Positions 12,021 through 60,038 of a stretch of 64,000 nt of DNA are shown one piece after another; within the stretch, counting starts at the first letter, position 1; the number at the start of each line of letters is the position of its first letter. The translations under genes and the position numbers were made by a program. The stretch is from Owenia fusiformis (taxonomy: Eukaryota; Annelida; Polychaeta; Sabellida; Oweniidae), in NCBI GenBank assembly GCA_903813345.2, contig CAIIXF020000005.1:7753375-7817374 (forward strand), read 5' to 3'. The notes under the pieces are model-generated. The model did no database searches. It saw only the letters and a program-made list of their open reading frames with translations, and was not told the DNA's origin.

Positions 12021-15000
12021 ATGGCAGAGGCGCCTTCGTGGAGCAAAAAGGTTCTATGCAGGTATACTCCCTAAGAACAAAGCTTTATGTCAATAATTAT
12101 AGCAAAAAACTTGAGAAGACATATCCAATGAACAAAATATAAAAAGATTTGCCGTGTATTTTGCCCACGTAGGCTAGAATATTGTAAATCAATTGAGGCC
12201 AAATTTTGTTTTGATTTGCAATTTTTTGTGAAAAATATTCAGCTTTCAGATAGCTAGAGAATTTCATAATAACTTTGTAATTTTTGTCATTGTTAAAATA
12301 CCATATATCCACCTACCTAAGTGTTTTTTTTACTCTGGATGTGTTACTGAGTTTATAGTTTGTAATCACAGATATTGGCCAGATCGTTTTGTAGTAGGAT
12401 CATAGGCTCAAAGAATAATACAGAAGATACGACACTAAATTGGAAAATTTCGAAAAAAAAGTGACCACCTTTCAAAACGTTCCTTATACAAAATGGTACC
12501 TGTTTCCCCGTGACAGATTTTGCACTTATTTTATAGCTGAGATCTTCATCTTTCTATTTCTACTTGTTTGGTTCGAGTAAATAACCTATGGATGCAGTTA
12601 TTTGACTTTCAATACGGCGAATATTTTTCACGAAATCCGGACTCTTGTGTGTCCAAATATCATTGTAATGATGACGTCACATTTCTGGAACCACGGGAGC
12701 AACATTCAGATTTGGACAGACAAGAGTCCGGCGATAAAATATCACTGTTTTGGCCTCTTATCAACGCAGTATTGCTTGAATAACGGCCATTGGTGATAAA
12801 AAAGGTAAAGAATAACAAGACCCTTCGAATGAGGTATGATTTGTCTCATATTTTTCAGAAATGGCTGCCGAATCGTCATTTTAAAATTTGAAATTTTCTG
12901 AGGTGTCTCATCTTGAGGAAATATTATTGAGCTACTGATTCTACTACAAAAGAATCTGGCCGGGATCTATGTTTGTAATGTACTACTTTTTTCAAGGCCT
13001 GACTGCGTCGCTAACATGCTAAATATAAGAGTTAGCTGACGTTTGGGAGTCTGACTTACCTTCTAAAGGTTAGAACCATATCACCTTCGTTGCGTCGATG
13101 ATGATGCATAAACATAGCATTTGATAGAAATTAGCGTAAATGCTTTTCCGACTTTTTCATTTTTCATCAATGTTGACTTCCGGGAAGGCGTTGTAGCATG
13201 GGCATTATCACGAAATAACGCATTGACCCTTGAACTTTACTTTGTTGACGTGTCAACCAAGCATGTCTGGTGTGAAAATTAAAAGAATATTAAGCAATGT
13301 TCTACATCCGCCAAGCTAAGTGAAGTAGTCAATATTTAAAATTACCAATTTCAAGTGAAGTACGCAACGAACGAAACTGCGTGATCTACACTCCCACTAT
13401 TGGTCTGAATGAAATGCTACGTAGAAATATGAGCCGTCTGCTGTATTAGTCGATTAATAGAGTAAGACCTGTTGGTGATGCTTTATAATTTAGACCAAAA
13501 CATTGAAGAACAAACGAACCTGTAAATCGTGAAAACAACGAACAAATATTCGGTTTTCACATATGTTCGGTAATTTTTCGTATTGAAACTTCCGGAACTT
13601 ACAAAAAAATCATTCATTTTCTCGATCCATGATTTACCTCTTGGATGTTGTGGCAAATGCTCCATGGTTGACGGAACAAAGGTGATATGGTTTCATTAAG
13701 ATTCGGGTTCTAACCTTTAGAAGGTAAGTCAGACTCCCAAACGTCAGCTAACTCTTATATTTAGCATGTTAGCGACGCAGTCAGGCCTTGAAAAAAGTAG
13801 TAATGCATCTAGAAATTTTCGAAAAAATGAGGTTCTCTAAAACTTGCCCTCAGTCATATCATGATAGAGCCCATGGTCATATGGTCCCCCAATATCTCAC
13901 TTCAACTAGGACAGCACCAGTTTCCTTTTGTAACCACTCTAGCAATGAAACGTCCCTGTGCATGGTGTCTGGGGAATTGTAGTGTAACAAGTCAGGAAAG
14001 GGAGTGTTCTAAAATTCAATGCTGTGTGGGAATTGAACCCAGGACCTTCTGCTCCAAAGTCTACTACTTGAGCCAAAGGGGCAAGGTGCTACAGCGCTGT
14101 AGCAGCAACTTGCTATCGAGGATCATCCTCCCTGAAGGACGATGTCCATTTGTGACTAATTTACAAGGGCAAATTCCACTTCTGACACCAATGAGTTGCT
14201 CCAGGACAGCACCAGTTTCGTTTGTAACGGCTCTAGAGCTTTTAGACTATGGATCCTAGCTTTGATTCCCACATCGGGCGTTGAATTTAGCACACATTCT
14301 TTCATGTCTGTATCTGGTTCATATTACACTCTCCTCAGAAGTTGGCCATTTCTCTGAAGTGCCCTCAGGTCATTTTATTGGTGTTTGATGTGAGATCTCC
14401 CTCACATCAAGGAAATTTCATAAAAACACCTATTTAAAACCAAGAATACACCAACCCATACTTTGCATGTATTTTCAGGTATTTTGCTCATGGAGTATGC
14501 AGAGAAGGTGATAACTGTCGCTACGCCCATGATTTCTCACGTCCCCCAGACTCAACATGTCGTTACTACCTCATGGGGACTTGTTCCTATGGAGATAAAT
14601 GCAGGTTAGTACCTAAAGAGAAAAATTCTGGGGTCAACCCAGTTGTCCGAAACCCAGTTGTCCGAAACCCAATTCTCCGAAACCCAGTTGTCCGAAACCC
14701 AGTTCTCCGAAAATAAGGGGATCTTATCAAAAAATACAATTTTTTAAAACGAATCTTGTCGCAACCTCTGCGAATCACGACAGCATAACATTTGAATCAC
14801 GTTGACATGACATCATTGCAAAATTAGGCTAAATATGCGAAGTCAAGACGTTAATTAGCCCACGAAAGTTCATGGGTAACTTGAGAACTACAAAATACAA
14901 CCAAATACTTTTCGAACTTACAATAGCAACATTTCTCACCTAACGTCTTCATAGTTTTAGGAACGTATTTTAAACGCATGATAGCCAAATATATCAAGAT

Positions 15001-18000
15001 ACTATATCTGCCTAAATGAAGTTAATTAGTGTTGACAAAGTTTTGAAATATATTTTATCCAGATCCATCAGAAATTAAGTTATCCAATACATTACTTTAC
15101 TAGTTCTAGTATCTTGCATGACTCGTTCATAAGAATTCTTTAATTCCATCTCCCGTTCCTGCCATTCTGGTAACGCCATGCAATGGATGCAATTCAAAGT
15201 GAGAGCGAGATTTATGAATATCAGAATGCGTCCATGCCATTAATTTGGCCAAATACATGGCATGAAACTGACGTAAGCTTAAGTAAGTTACGCCCCCCCC
15301 CCCTTTCTCTGTTAAATTATGACTTTATTTTTCGGAGTAATGGGTTTCGGACAACTGGGTTTCGGGGAATTGGGTTTCGGACAACTGGGTTTCGGAGAAC
15401 TGGGGTGTACCCAAAATTCTTGGTTTTGCAAGCCTTCAGATGAACTGAAAACTTTGTTGAAAAATGAGTTCATTGTTCTTATGTTCTATATCAGAGTCAC
15501 CAATAATCACTAATTAACTTAGTGCCACAAATGAGACTAATAAAATGGCATACACTGTGAGGATTAATGCATGATTAATTAATTATTCAAACATGACTGT
15601 ATTCACACCTTCTATAAACTGTAAACAAAGTCAATGCTTCAGCTGGGTTATATTCGAGATCAAATCCCCAGCTCTGTACTAAGTGTTTCGCTCAGTGCAC
15701 TCATTGGTCAGTTTAGGTCGTTCGGGGTACAGAAAACGTTTGTGCCTAGACCCTGCGGGGTGTATTCGAAACTAGTAGCCCTGCTCTTCAGTCTATATTT
15801 CGTCGCATGAGAATAACTTTGTACTATCTCACATTTTTACGGAACTGAGAAATCAAGGTTTGAAAGTTTAGAAGCCTGTATCTTACTTAGTATTGCTATG
15901 TGAAACTTGATTTTTTGTATGTCACCTGGTCTCACCCTAGAGATATCTTATATGAAATATCATACCTTGAAACAATTTACAAGATCCTTTTTTAAAACTA
16001 TGGAAATGGAGTTGATACAATTTCCCACCGGAATAACAGCTTATTTCTAATTTCAAATTGTCATATCTGATATCAACTGTTTCAACCAATCAACTCTCTA
16101 AGAATTGGTCATGTGACTTGCAAAACTTGGAGTTATAACAATCTTATAGTAAAACAAAGTATGCCAATATGCATGTTATTGTATCTAGAATATTATTTAA
16201 TAAAATAAAGAAAATTCAATTTATAAAACTTTAAAATCAATTTCTCAAATAAGTACAATTATTTCTAAATTTTGGAATCTCAGGACACCCTTCAAAAAGA
16301 ATTTATTGCCTTTGAAACTAAGGCAGAAGTACAATACATTGAAACCAATGATGCCAATATGGTCCCCCACATATTTCCCTCGGTATAAACCCTGTAGCCT
16401 AAACCTCCCAGCACATTACAATGTAGCCCCTAAGGGCCGGTCCGCTGGTCATCATCAGGTTATTTTTGATACAGACCAGTTGATTTTTACACTGGGTATA
16501 GGAGAATAACATTGCAATTGGTCCGTAATTCCATTTTGACCAGCAGGTTTCAGATCCTTAGGGCCTAAGACATAACCAATTTTTATTACATGCACATGGA
16601 AGAAATTTGAAAATAGAAAAATAATTTCTAATTCATTTTAGATTAATGAAAGTGATGAAACCTCGATTTAGGTAATCACATTTTGTTCATTGGGATGCAG
16701 CTATCATTATCCATTCATTTTCTGTTGTTTGCTACTCTGTGGAGTACAATTGGGAATTGAAGCAATTGTAGAAGTGGAGACTAAGAGTGGCTCTTTGTAA
16801 AGAAATTGAACCAATTTGTTACTTTTGCAAAATAAAATGTAGATGATCTAAAAACAATGATCCAAAAATGCAAAAGAAAGGACAAATCTGAAAAACATAC
16901 TAGTAATAAAATAACTAAAAAGATCCCAGATGTTCAGTGAAAAGCGCAAAGTAAATCATAGATGAAGAGAAAATAAAATAAGTGTTTTAAGGAACTATAC
17001 TAACATAAAGATAACTCCTTATTGATATAGTGTATGGTCAGTAAAAGTTAAAGCTAGTTTAAATAGATTTAGCTTTTTTCCACAAACTATAAAACATCAT
17101 TTTGAAAGAGATTTCAATAGTATACAGACAGTGATTGCCTTTGAGCAATGTAGTGCAAAATATGACAGTTACTATTTGTTTTGATTACTATATCTAGTAT
17201 ATAACCTATTATTATGTACTCTACATTTCTATTTGAAGAAACAAGTAAGTAGTCTTTCATTTTCAACATTTAATGATGACAGCTTCGTATATGCATTTCT
17301 ATTGCATTTGGCCATTCAAACCCCTATAAGACCTGGTAGCAGGGAAGATAAAGGGTACTTTTGACTGCTCACATGATCTAATTAACTGGTCATTTGTACT
17401 TTTCATCTTCCCTGGTAGCAAGGATTTAGGTTTTCAAGGAAATAGTAATTCTATTTCATATCATGTGGCCATGAATAATCCAATGAGCATCTGTAATACT
17501 TAATTGAGGGCATATAATTTGAATATGCATGGGATTACACATACTGTATCATTTTATTTTTTTGATCTACTTGTAATAGTTCTAAAACTAAAACATGAAA
17601 GGCCAGGCATTCAAACTGGCATGGTATTGTGTTACAAAACATTATTTCATTCTAGATACAATAACATGCATATTGGCATTCTTCGTTTTAATATAAGATT
17701 GTTATAACTCCAAGTTTTGCAAGTCACATGACCAATTCTTAGAGAGTTGATTGGTTGAAACAGTTGATATCAGATATGACAATTTGAAATTAGAAATAAG
17801 CTGTTTGTCTGGAGATGGTACAATTTCACACTGAATTCTAGCTTAATGAGAGGGAATTGAGATGGGGCATGTATCTGAGATGAAAGCCTGTGTTTCAAAT
17901 AGTAAAATTCCATGTCTATCTCAATTTTTTTGAAAATGGCAGTTAGTACAAAGTTATTCTCACGTGACGATTTCTTAAATTAGGAATAAATCTTAATGAA

Positions 18001-32144: not shown

Positions 32145-33284
32145 TTAAATTACAGTAATATTATGTGAGTATATCAGGGAATTATAGATTGCCAAAAGAC
32201 TTGTTTTATTCAATAGGTGGCGAATCTTATATAAGAGACCAATTGTTCTGGATATTTTTGCTTCTATATGTTTAATATGTTCTTTCCAGGTAATATGTTC
32301 ATCAACAATGACACCTAAAAAGTTGATAGATTTTACTCTTTCAATTTGTTTCCCGGACATATCAATTTTAATATCTCTAAAGATTTGTCGTTTCTGTTTA
32401 TTGAACAAGATAAATTTTGTTTTAGAATAGTTTATTGACAATTTATTTGCTTTGAACCAATCGTCCATAAGATCAAGTTCATTATTAACCTTTTCTATTA
32501 GAGATTTCAAATCTTTATCTGAGGCCAACAAATTAGTGTCGTCAGCAAATATCACGCTTTTAAGAATATTGGAAACCTTAAACATGTCATTTACATATAA
32601 TATGAATAATGTCGGCCCAAGGACTGAGCCCTGGGGCACACCGCATGATATACTTTGTAAATCTGAGTCAATATTGTGATATGATACAATTTGCTTTCGA
32701 TCTTTTAGATATGATTTAAAAAGAGATAGTTCAGACCCTTGAATTCCATAAAAATTTAATTTATCTAGAAGGATTTTATGATTAATAGTGTCAAAGGCTT
32801 TAGACAAGTCTAAAAAAATACCAAGCGAATATTCATTGTTCTCCAGCGCATGTCGTATGTTTTCAACAAAAGTTAAGATTGCCATAAAGGTAGAGACATT
32901 TTTCTGAAAGCCATACTGATGTATATATAATATTTCATTTTCTGTGATAAAATTACAGAGCCTAAAGTTAATAAGTTTTTCTAGAAGTTTAGAAAAAACT
33001 GGCAAAACTGAAATTGGTCTATAGTTTGAGAAATTGTCTTTTTGACCTTTTTTGAAAATTGGTGTTTCCTTAGCTATTTTGAGTTTATCCGGGAAAATTC
33101 CCTGTTGAAAGGATTTATTGAATATCAAAAGTAAAGGCTGTATAAGTTCATCTTTTGCATGTTTTACAATAATCGGTTTAATATTATCAAGAGATGCTGC
33201 CTTATCTTTCAAAGTTTGTATTAATGATGACAATTCTGTTTCATCAACTGGTGTTAAGTGAAATCTATTTTCAAAATGTCCCAT
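32145..33284 (-). pseudogene. Reverse transcriptase domain of the LINE
   Basis: The longest intact piece, 379 codons. Classic RT blocks are visible: PIFKKGQKDNFSNYRPISVL, YGFQKNVSTFMAI, LGIFLDLSKAFDTINHKILL, SCGVPQGSVLGPTLFILYVN, the catalytic FADD in VIFADDTNLL, and FLGVIVDEHITW. This copies element RNA into DNA at the target site. The catalytic aspartates remain, but the protein cannot be made whole because of the frameshift just downstream, an upstream stop and the inserted element 70 bp 5' of the frame. Confidence 0.9.
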
Positions 33285-33353
33285 ATAACTAATATATTCA
33301 TTTGGTGTTCTGTTTGACTCTGGAATTTTAGAACTTAATTTTAATCCAATTGA

Positions 33354-34961
33354 TCCCCAGCCTTTCAGTAGGTTCGCTTTAGGTGATATATTTAACTAGG
33401 ATTTCTAGGTTCGCTTTAGGTAGTTCCCCATATAAAAACTCCATTGGTAGGTTCGCTTTAGGCGATGTTCAAATATGCTAATTAGGTCTAGGTTTACTTT
33501 AGGTGATCACCTAAAGCGAACCTATAACTACCTATAACTACCTAAACTACCTAAAGCGAACCTAGGTAGGTTCGCTTTAGGTAATTATAGGTTCGCTCTA
33601 GGTAATTATAGGTTCACTTTAGGTGGTCACCTAAAGCGAACCTGAATCTAATTAGCATATTTGAACATCGCCTAAAGTGAACCTAAAACTACCTAAAGCG
33701 AACCTACGTAGGTTCGCATTAGGTAAATACTTCCAAGGGCTGGGTTGGCTTTAGACCACCCAGCAGCTGGATGACTTGATTTGTTGATTTGAACTGTTTA
33801 TATATTTCTCACACATTTTGATGCATATATTCTCACGCAAGTACATTTATTTACAATGATGGTCCTAAGCTGGCCTATGGAGGTAGCCGGGTGCCTGGAC
33901 CCTACAAACTTGTGAACTGTATAGGCTATATGTCAACTGTTTATTTATTTCTCACACATTTTGATGCTTAGTTTCTCACTCAGGTACATTTATTTAAAAT
34001 TCCTCCTATTTTATAATTGCATGCTTTTATAACACTTAACCTCTTGAATACCAGCCTCTAAAAAGGGTTTGAACCCAGAGTATTGTTTATTTTTTGCCAG
34101 TTATTTTGATATTTACATCTAAAAACACTACAGTTGATGTTTGATTTCATAAGAATAGTAAACATAGACCCTCATTTTAAAACATCATTTGTGAAGATTG
34201 GATAAAAATTGCCAAAGTTAGAGCAGTTTTAGTGAAAAATTCTGTGACAGATATATCCGTCATTCTGGGTATTCAAGAGGTTAAAATAATATATTGATTG
34301 ATCATTTGTACACTTACTTACATGTACTTTGTAAATGAGCACTGATGTGATGGTCATTTCAGCATATTTCCCCATTTTCCTGGCTATTTCCAAATTTCCT
34401 GTCTAACTGATTTTAGTTTGAATATTATACCCACAATGCATTGATACTTCCTGCTATCAGCGCCCCTAGTGGCTGTGACAGAACTTCTGTTTTGTAGGTT
34501 TGCTTTAGGTAGCTTTAGGTAGCTTTGGGTTCGAACCTAAAACTACCTACAAGTTTGAAGTGTTTTAGGTAGATTTAAGATTTTTAGGTTCGCTTTAGGT
34601 AACTCTTGAAGAATGACTATGTTTTTTAGGTTCGCTTTGGGTTCGAACCTAAAACTACCTACAACTTTTCGATTTTTTAAGTGTTTTAGGTAGTTTTAGG
34701 TAACTCTAGATAATTTCTAAGATTTTTTGGTTCGGTTTAGGTAAATCCTGAAAAAGTATAACATTTTTAGGTTCGCCTTAGGTTCGAACCTAAAACTACC
34801 TACAAGTTTCTGATTTTTTTAAAGTGCTTTAGGTAGTTTTAGGTTCGAACCTAAAGCGAACCTACATGAAGTAGGTTCGTTTAGGTAGCCATCAAATTGT
34901 GGGATTCACTTTTAGGTTCGCTTTAGGTTCGAACCTACATCACCTACTGAAAGGCTGGGGA
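33354..34961. mobile_element. Unusual element built of bidirectional AGGTTCGCTTTAGGT motifs, inserted in the LINE
   Basis: Terminal inverted repeats TCCCCAGCCTTTCAGTAGGT (33354) and ACCTACTGAAAGGCTGGGGA (ending 34961). Two clusters (about 33369-33730 and 34494-34945) hold some twenty or more copies of AGGTTCGCTTTAGGT and its reverse ACCTAAAGCGAACCT, often joined head to head as GGTTCGAACC palindromes. The middle 760 bp lacks the motif and has no coding frame. In the LINE frame, FFS...SIGLKLSS is restored if the element is lifted out between T and T with no duplication (or with a 2-bp TC duplication). Lack of duplication at a TT target recalls Helentron-type elements, but that is only a hypothesis. 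Confidence 0.75.
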
Positions 34962-35444
34962 AGAAAAGAATGAGTTGAATTTATTGGCAATCAACTTTTT
35001 ATCATTTACTGCAATACCATCGACCAGAAATTCGTTTTGAACCACTGTATGAAGTTTTTTCCTATTTAAAATGTCAGAGATAATATTCCAGGTTTGTTTA
35101 ATATTTCCAGATGCAGTTTCAAATTGATTCCGATAGTGGTTTTTTTCTACAGCTCTCAAAATAGCTCTGAACCTTGCTTTATATATTTTATAGTTTCTTT
35201 CATCTTCTTCACTAGGGGTCTTCATAAATTTACGTTAAAGATTATTTTTTTGCTTGGCTGATGTGATAATCCCATTTGTTATCCATGGCTTAGAAGTATC
35301 AACAAAAAGTTTCACTTTCTTTAATTTAAGAGGAAAAGATTCATTGTATATGTTTTGAAAAATATCTGAAAATATTTCGAAGCAATCATTGACATCATCG
35401 GTAGTTTGCAAAATATCCCAGTTTAAAACACTCAACTTTTGTTA

Positions 35445-36891
35445 TGTCCCCACCACATAGTGTGGGGCCATATTGTCGGCCTAGGCGCGTCCGTCTGTCC
35501 GTCCGTACGTCCGTCCGTCCGTCTGTCCGTCAGATATCACCTTCAAATTTTCAGGGATAACTTATGAGTGCATACAGATGTGGATGAAAATTTTTTAACT
35601 CGATACCTACTTCCTGTCGGCCATTTTGAAGTCAAATGCTAAAATCCTTGTCTGCAAACTTTAAGAAAAACGGCTTCACAGTTGCTTTTAAAACTTTAAC
35701 ATCTTGTTCAGCTTACTTCATTCTAGATCTGATTAGGTTTTGGACCTGTTAGCTCAGTCATGTCAGCCATTTTGAATGTCTTAAGAAAAGTTAGCGCACG
35801 ATAATACTTTGTATCATATTGAATGGTGTTTTTGAGTTTTCATACTTTAACTATTTAGTAGCTTTATAAATAATTTCAGATGTACTTTGTTGTAAAAGCC
35901 TATGTTATTGTTAACAGTAGTTATATGTGATAATTTTGTAAGAAGAAATCAGCAAAAACACATAATCACTTTTTTATTGTCGGCCATTTTGGATTTTTCC
36001 GTCCTAAAATCTTGTCTGTGAAGTCTTGTCTACGTGTTTTCAGGTGAACCGTTTGGTGGATCAATTTCAAATTTTCAGGGATGATTCTTAGTATAAAAAT
36101 CTAGATCTGATTTGTTTTTTGGCATTCTGGGTAAATGTCAAGGCAGCCATTTTGGATTTTCTGTCCTAAAATCTTGTCTGTAAAGTCTTGTCTATGCATT
36201 TCCAGGTGAACCGTTCTGTAGATCAATTTCAAATTTTTAGGGATGATTCTTAGTATGAAAATCTAGATCTGATTAGTTTTTTGGCATTCTGGATAAATGT
36301 CAAGGCAGCCATTTTGGATTTTCCGTCTTAAAATCTTGCCTGTAAAGTCTTGTCTACGCGTTTTTAGGTGAACCATTTGGTAGATCAATTTCAAATTTTC
36401 AGGGATGATTCTTAGTGTGAAAATCTACATCTGATTAGTTTTTTGGCATTCTGTGTAAATGTCATGGCAGCCATTTTGGATTTTCTGTCCTAAAATCTTG
36501 TCTGTAAAGTCTTGTCTACGCGTTTTCAGGTGAACCATTTGGTAGATCAATGTCATATTTTCAGGGATGATTCTTAGTATGAAAATCTAGGAACAGATTA
36601 GTTTTTTGACATTCTGGGTAAATGTCAAGGCAGCCATTTTGGATTTTCCATCCTAAAATCTTGTCTGTAAAGTCTTGTTTACATGTTTTCTAGTTAACTG
36701 TGTGACGGATCAATTAAAAATTTTCAGGGGTGGTTCTTAGTTTGAAAATCTAGAACTGACTAAATTTTTGGCATTCTGGGTAAATTTTAAGGTGGCCATT
36801 TTGGATTTTCCGTCCTCAAATTTTGTTGGTAAAGTCTTGTCTACTCATTTTCAGGATAACCATTTGATGGGATCACCCATTGGTGGGGACA
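35445..36891. mobile_element. CCGT-microsatellite element with internal 155-bp tandem repeats, inserted in the LINE
   Basis: Ends TGTCCCCACCA and TGGTGGGGACA are inverted repeats. After a terminal palindrome (CCCCACCACATAGTGTGGGG) comes a (TCCG)n stretch at 35487-35532, then about six tandem copies of a roughly 155-bp unit (35970-36880) containing GCAGCCATTTTGGATTTTC and GGGATGATTCTTAGTATG. Flanks read, on the minus strand, GTACAAAA before and TAACAAAA after: an 8-bp duplication with two changes. Removing the element and one copy restores the LINE reading frame exactly (HKCVQ-KLSVLNW). Confidence 0.8.
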
Positions 36892-59725: not shown

Positions 59726-60038
59726 AGCTAGGGTTTCAAGGCCCTAACCAGGACCTGTAGCTTAATGTTTAAGGCCTTAAATGGGACATTTAGCTAGATG
59801 TTTAAGGCCTGAAATCTGACCTATAGCTAAACGTTTAAGGCCTGAAACTTACAAATCCTTAAACAGGACCTGTAGCTATATGTTTAAGGCCTTAGACTAG
59901 ACAGAACCTAAAGCTAGATTCTTAAGGCCTCAAACCTGACCTATAGCTAGAGGTCCAATACATTAAAAAGAACATACATGACATGTATAGCTGGATATTC
60001 AAGGCCTTAATAAGGACCTTTAGCTTGTGATTCAAGGC
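59726..60038. repeat. Degenerate minisatellite downstream of TRABD, unit about 36-40 bp
   Basis: Eight to nine copies of a unit of the form GACCTGTAGCTAGATGTTTAAGGCCTTAAA. It starts about 160 bp after the TRABD stop, so probably in its 3' UTR. Confidence 0.85.

Follow-up and report, generated by a model that had tools for sequence, protein, structure and literature searches.

A probable non-autonomous DNA transposon with two helically spaced motif arrays interrupts a LINE reverse-transcriptase frame

Introduction

Within a 64-kb stretch of DNA (the window, i.e. the whole of the sequence analysed), a LINE reverse-transcriptase frame is interrupted by 1,608 bp (33354-34961) that begin and end in inverted repeats and carry one short motif many times over in two subterminal clusters. 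What kind of element is this, how did it insert, and is its type a new one? An earlier note on this DNA had favoured an undescribed transposon type. We examined the ends, the insertion site and the motif arrays of the element, looked for relatives, and weighed the known systems that it resembles (features in Table 1).

Table 1. Features of the element and of the interrupted LINE frame, in positions of the window
Feature	Positions	Strand	Remarks
LINE frame, downstream part	32145-33353	-	starts SIGLKLSS; reverse transcriptase, RVT_1
Left terminal inverted repeat TCCCCAGCCTTTCAGTAGGT	33354-33373	+	20/20 complementary to 34942-34961; consists of TCCCCAGCCTTTCAG plus first half-site TAGGT
Left array	33369-33724	.	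13 15-mer sites on a lattice of about 20 bp; 27 TAGGT/ACCTA half-sites
87-bp inverted duplication, first arm	33448-33534	+	inside left array; 90% complementary to 33599-33685
87-bp inverted duplication, second arm	33599-33685	-	inside left array
71-bp direct repeat, central spacer	33787-33857	+	second copy 33930-34000, 87% identical
Nested 241-bp element	34036-34284	.	13-bp perfect inverted ends CCTCTTGAATACC, TTAA both sides
Right array	34495-34946	.	7 15-mer sites; 28 half-sites; 5 GGTTCGAACC palindromes
Right terminal inverted repeat	34942-34961	-	20/20 complementary to left repeat
LINE frame, upstream part	34962-35234	-	ends FFS at junction

Results

Terminal repeats and insertion site

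The ends of the element agree with the 19-20 bp terminal inverted repeats (TIRs) that had been reported for it: they are perfectly inverted over 20 bp, and the element thus has at both of its ends the repeats of a cut-and-paste DNA transposon. A search for the 19-mer core of the TIR with up to three mismatches returned only these two ends in the 64-kb window, against 0.00 in shuffled sequence. Bases 16-20 of each repeat already form the first half-site of the adjoining array, and the part of each end that lies outside the array is the outer 15 bp.

The element breaks the LINE frame on the minus strand, the product of which matched the Pfam family RVT_1 (E 2.6e-34). Eleven solved-structure sequences also supported a LINE-type reverse transcriptase, with matches that started at query residue 34 or later and left the junction uncovered, and five phage records matched the LINE protein at 25-31% identity. 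Joined outside the 20-bp repeats, the flanks read NKFNSFFSSIGLKLSSKIPESN and the frame was open across the junction, giving the peptide NSFFSSIGLKLSS; a stop codon was present further upstream in the LINE. The target inferred from this join, assuming no duplication, reads TTGA|AGAA along the plus strand and CT|TC along the minus strand (the bar marks the point of insertion). In many LINEs this position has the form [F/Y]Fxx[I/V]G, the longer form, as in FFSSIG, being the usual one. No second copy of the interrupted LINE was found in the window by tblastn, and searches of viral_contigs with the frame, two pieces of it and a two-row alignment returned one fragment at a contig edge, which did not include the junction region.

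Target duplications of 1-10 bp were tabulated for three definitions of the ends (20, 19 and 18 bp). The sole exact duplication was a single A/A, which would break the LINE frame. Two near-duplications, each with one changed base, keep the frame. One, AT/AA with 19-bp ends, likewise yields FFSSIG since TCA also encodes serine; the other, TGA/AGA with 20-bp ends, yields FFSIG. The earlier note had read the empty site as implying no duplication or one of 2 bp, the latter being a GA duplication that requires ends offset by two bases; this stands in so far as joining the flanks restores the LINE frame, and was too narrow in that AT/AA and TGA/AGA fit as well. We conclude that a target duplication was probably absent or no longer than 3 bp, with the single copy compatible with none, 2 or 3. 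Between 4 and 10 bp, no length gave matches at over half of the positions under any of the three definitions; at 8 bp, 4/8 positions matched with 20-bp ends and 2/8 with 19- or 18-bp ends. hAT, Mutator, Merlin, P (the duplication length of which falls within this range) and other superfamilies with duplications of 4-10 bp were rejected on this ground. piggyBac was rejected for the element as a whole, as its flanks show no TTAA duplication (TTGA/AGAA, TGAT/AAGA); TTAA flanks the nested element.

Motif and arrays

Allowing up to three mismatches, the 15-mer AGGTTCGCTTTAGGT had 20 matches in the window, all of them within the element (10 exact, the worst with two mismatches), compared with a mean of 1.00 and a largest value of 4 in 100 shuffles of the whole 64-kb window, and a mean of 0.04 and a largest value of 1 in 200 shuffles of the element alone. 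Thirteen sites fell in 33370-33724 and seven in 34496-34928, 14 being forward and six reverse, which confirms the earlier description of two subterminal clusters carrying the motif in both orientations. When preceded by T, the 15-mer contains two TAGGT half-sites 11 bp apart. Of the half-site TAGGT/ACCTA the element has 55 copies, 35 of them forward and 20 reverse, versus 87 in the other 62.4 kb. "Dozens" of motifs, as claimed earlier, is accordingly right for the half-site and too high for the full 15-mer. The arrays measure 356 and 452 bp, each starting with the last five bases of the adjacent end. Three related units make up part of the right array (starts 34522, 34634 and 34775, i.e. 112 and 141 bp apart). 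The frequent fusion of motifs into palindromes that had been described was found in the right cluster, which holds all five GGTTCGAACC palindromes (34528, 34640, 34781, 34842 and 34926), and not in the left, where GATC and GGTC occupy the position of the palindrome centre.

Beyond what the earlier note described, the half-sites are spaced at about one turn of the helix. Among 103 same-orientation pairs no more than 70 bp apart, spacing had a period of 10.2 bp with a mean cosine of 0.596, a value reached in 0 of 1,000 random placements (largest 0.252), part of this signal being internal to the motif with its two half-sites 11 bp apart; 27 of the pairs were at 10 or 11 bp, seven at 21 bp and seven at 42 bp. 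Successive sites of the left array were spaced by 37, 42, 41, 19, 40, 19, 21, 21, 19, 41, 21 and 19 bp, and the strength of the resulting lattice, 0.953, was matched by none of 5,000 random placements (largest 0.919). The lattice of the right array, calculated from seven sites and without a random control, was weaker, at 0.715 for 20.6 bp and at best 0.803 for 11.0 bp.

Half-sites facing each other head to head had a fixed distance: with spacers of 0-12 bp considered, all five exact pairs had a spacer of 4 bp, which read GATC once, GGTC once and TCGA three times, and two further TCGA pairs had one altered base (TGGGT). Exact tail-to-tail pairs had spacers of 2, 2, 7 and 9 bp. As background, GGT-N4-ACC occurred eight times in the span of the element (one of these in the nested insertion) versus nine times in the remaining window. 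A constant 4-bp spacer with differing letters is how a dimer site would be expected to look. Given that the arrays contain the 87-bp inverted duplication (90%) and the three related units, their sites do not count as independent of one another, and duplication may have produced some of the regularity together with most of the repeated pairs with a 4-bp spacer. Tandem runs of 10 and 21 bp were also detected.

Coding content and nested insertion

The longest frame confined to the element was 57 aa, and no transposase was found in it from the listing of frames and a Pfam scan of four of the 23 listed frames, which returned 0 families at E up to 1. Between the arrays lies the nested 241-bp element, a putative piggyBac-like insertion as judged by its ends and target, the exact 13-mer ends of which occurred nowhere else in the window. 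Subtracting the nested insertion and one TTAA leaves a host element of 1,363 bp.

Searches for relatives

No other copy of the element was found in the window, either with the TIR at up to three mismatches or by blastn (E 1e-3). DNA scans of viral_contigs for the TIR 19-mer, a gapped motif pair and a 23-mer of the right array gave 0 matches, as did a distant-mode search of plasmids with the whole element. In genome_contigs the TIR 19-mer had three exact matches in bacterial contigs, which we attribute to chance, as 0/3 loci (8,000 bases) contained a second TIR (up to three mismatches) or the 15-mer (up to two). Because these collections hold viruses, prokaryotes and plasmids, the searches are silent on how many copies the host has. 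Four strings taken from the end and the motif were absent from the literature texts searched, among which the accessible part of a paper on bivalve transposons (PMC10294476) had nothing on the layout of the element; an entry in Repbase or Dfam may nevertheless exist.

Discussion

Nature of the element

We consider it likely, with good confidence, that this is a non-autonomous (gene-less) cut-and-paste DNA transposon, the superfamily of which is not fixed by a single copy, because it combines perfect 20-bp ends, motif arrays and regular geometry with no coding capacity found and a LINE frame kept on both sides. As only one copy was seen, with none other and no autonomous partner in the window, its mobility is deduced from its anatomy and from the interrupted LINE. 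An autonomous relative elsewhere in the genome would supply a transposase cutting at TCCCC/GGGGA (or CCCC/GGGG); the TAGGT half-sites might be bound either by an element-encoded DNA-binding protein or by another domain of that transposase. With a spacing of about one helical turn, these half-sites would face the same side of the DNA, and the protein could assemble in a regular manner along each array and draw both ends of the element together, with the head-to-head pairs and their 4-bp spacers possibly serving as dimer sites.

A possible reading, although on the unlikely side, is that the element is one of the PHIS transposons (Spy, ISL2EU, Harbinger, Nuwa and relatives), and more specifically that it is moved by a DDE transposase of the Spy type, with insertion that leaves no duplication. 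According to the available text of PMC10045372, PHIS elements have no target-site duplication (TSD) or TSDs of 1-4 bp, and the frame-restoring join is compatible with zero duplication while the near-duplications AT/AA and TGA/AGA would fit too. Spy, which is found in bivalves, has no TSD and TIRs of 15 to 467 bp in the five tested (PMC4482050, PMC11304231, as far as accessible), and is thus like our element in its TIRs and, on one reading, in the missing duplication. However, Spy inserts in AAA|TTT whereas the rejoined target here is TTGA|AGAA, and the word "subterminal" is absent from the main text of both papers. Nor do the flanks, G-AT and AA-G with G on both outer sides, agree with the A|AT|T of ISL2EU, and the element starts with TCCC or CCCC where the accessible portions of the literature give A or G as usual for Harbinger, AG or GG for Pangu and GGG for NuwaI. 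It is unlikely, despite the same layout and density, that the element is a non-autonomous relative of CACTA transposons (CMC/EnSpm) whose subterminal motifs are bound by a TNPA-like protein and whose 2-4-bp duplication is hidden by one substitution. In the accessible text of PMC2613891, subterminal motifs of CACTA elements occur in both orientations and are bound by an element-encoded protein, and the soybean Tgmt* element carries 28 subterminal repeats in 159+732 bp (891), direct and inverted and capable of forming stem-loops; our element has 20 sites in 808 bp (356+452). Short TIRs, asymmetric arrays in both orientations, similar density and palindromic pairs are therefore shared with Tgmt*, and the earlier claim of an unusual density falls. 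CMC TSDs measure 2-4 bp (PMC4482050, in its available part), and TGA/AGA, one base apart, would preserve the LINE frame; over 2-4 bp the closest flanks agreed at 2/3 (TGA/AGA) or 1/2 (AT/AA) positions, neither exactly. Against this, the ends are TCCCCAGCC and not CACTA, the motif is different, the 3-bp duplication is not exact, and a 2-of-3 match is frequent by chance. A 3-bp duplication would moreover give the LINE FFSIG and not FFSSIG, the longer form being the usual one in LINEs. It is quite unlikely that the arrays are satellite-like, grown by slippage and inverted duplication in an ordinary TIR element and without any role in binding. The 87-bp inverted duplication, the units 112 and 141 bp apart and the 10- and 21-bp tandem runs are what such growth would leave, but each terminal repeat has a half-site built in (bases 16-20), the arrays sit next to the two ends and away from the middle of the element, and head-to-head pairs keep their 4-bp distance although the letters between them differ.

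The earlier note had compared the element with Helentrons, and a rolling-circle origin (Helentron/HINE), with insertion at T|T and no duplication, would account for the minus-strand join CT|TC and for the palindrome TAGGTTCGAACCTA, which ends 24 bp from the plus-strand 3' end. In the accessible text on mite HINEs (PMC4067079), the 3' end is preceded by a palindrome at approximately 8-35 bp and by inverted repeats at about 38-60 bp, and the boundaries carry T runs. The likeness of a T|T target on one strand and a palindrome near one end is nonetheless a poor fit, as element polarity implies that target and palindrome should share a strand. Here T|T is on the minus strand, the 3' end of which (33354, last 130 bases) folds no better than shuffles (z 0.80), whereas strong folding (z -6.77, from the pairing of two array segments 48 bp apart) is found at the plus-strand 3' end, where the target is A|A. 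T runs are absent from both boundaries, and the repeats of the element are at its very ends and not subterminal as in HINEs; we therefore regard a rolling-circle origin as highly improbable. Scarcely probable at all is an IS607-like serine recombinase element, suggested by multiple subterminal repeats without a duplication. In the IS607 family, dimers of TnpA bind cooperatively to multiple subterminal repeats and insertion occurs without duplication, but IS607 elements are without TIRs and IS607 itself inserts at GG (PMC6188088, accessible part), in contrast to the perfect 20-bp TIRs and the target without GG found here. The same text describes many subterminal repeats or sites at variable spacing and orientation in hAT elements, to which our element is alike in its multiple subterminal repeats and from which it differs in having no 8-bp duplication. 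ATon of Aedes aegypti has TIRs of 15 and 17 bp in two families, an AT that is either split or duplicated (the authors could not tell which) and no autonomous partner found (PMC3422177, as far as accessible). It resembles our element in being gene-less, with TIRs and a target ambiguous between a split and a 2-bp duplication, and differs in its AT target, its size of under 500 bp and, in the available text of that paper, the lack of any mention of motif arrays.

Is the gene-less cut-and-paste transposon that we favour, then, of a new type? The earlier interpretation is borne out for a transposable element whose arrays, by their anatomy, are fit for protein binding; its further step to a new type leaned on a target site left undecided and on one copy. 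The element is real and clearly marked, and its general kind is a known one. Its density does not set it apart, because a CACTA element is comparably dense, and TIR elements without a target duplication (Spy) or with an ambiguous one (ATon) have already been described. It is very unlikely, in our judgement, that it represents an undescribed TIR lineage with blunt or near-blunt insertion without target duplication, a target unlike that of Spy, and a protein that polymerises along TAGGT half-sites in phase with the helix and forms dimers on head-to-head pairs of constant 4-bp spacing. If the missing duplication held over many copies, the element would be a further eukaryotic case, beside Spy, of TIRs without target duplication, and its regular arrays would offer a clean system in which to study the building of a synaptic complex by subterminal sites. 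Known from one copy, it serves chiefly as a well-marked family to seek, in which the 15-bp terminus and the arrays should make relatives and an autonomous partner easy to find in a host genome.

Other repeats in the window

The window is, we infer, eukaryotic, since it contains a LINE and mobile elements with inverted repeats. At 12981-13802, perfect inverted repeat arms of 97 bp with flanks GTTTGTAATG and ATGCATCTAG and a possible ATG duplication mark an element of fold-back type. Perfect inverted arms of 114 bp lie 1.8 kb apart at 16035-17805, within a longer inverted structure (arms 15808/17962 and 16161/17679). Beyond the LINE, 35983-36866 is occupied by 5.4 copies of a 162-bp tandem repeat. 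A 33-bp tandem repeat with GACCTATAGCTA units is found at 59733-59847, in the only 400-bp bin outside the element that has at least four TAGGT/ACCTA half-sites.
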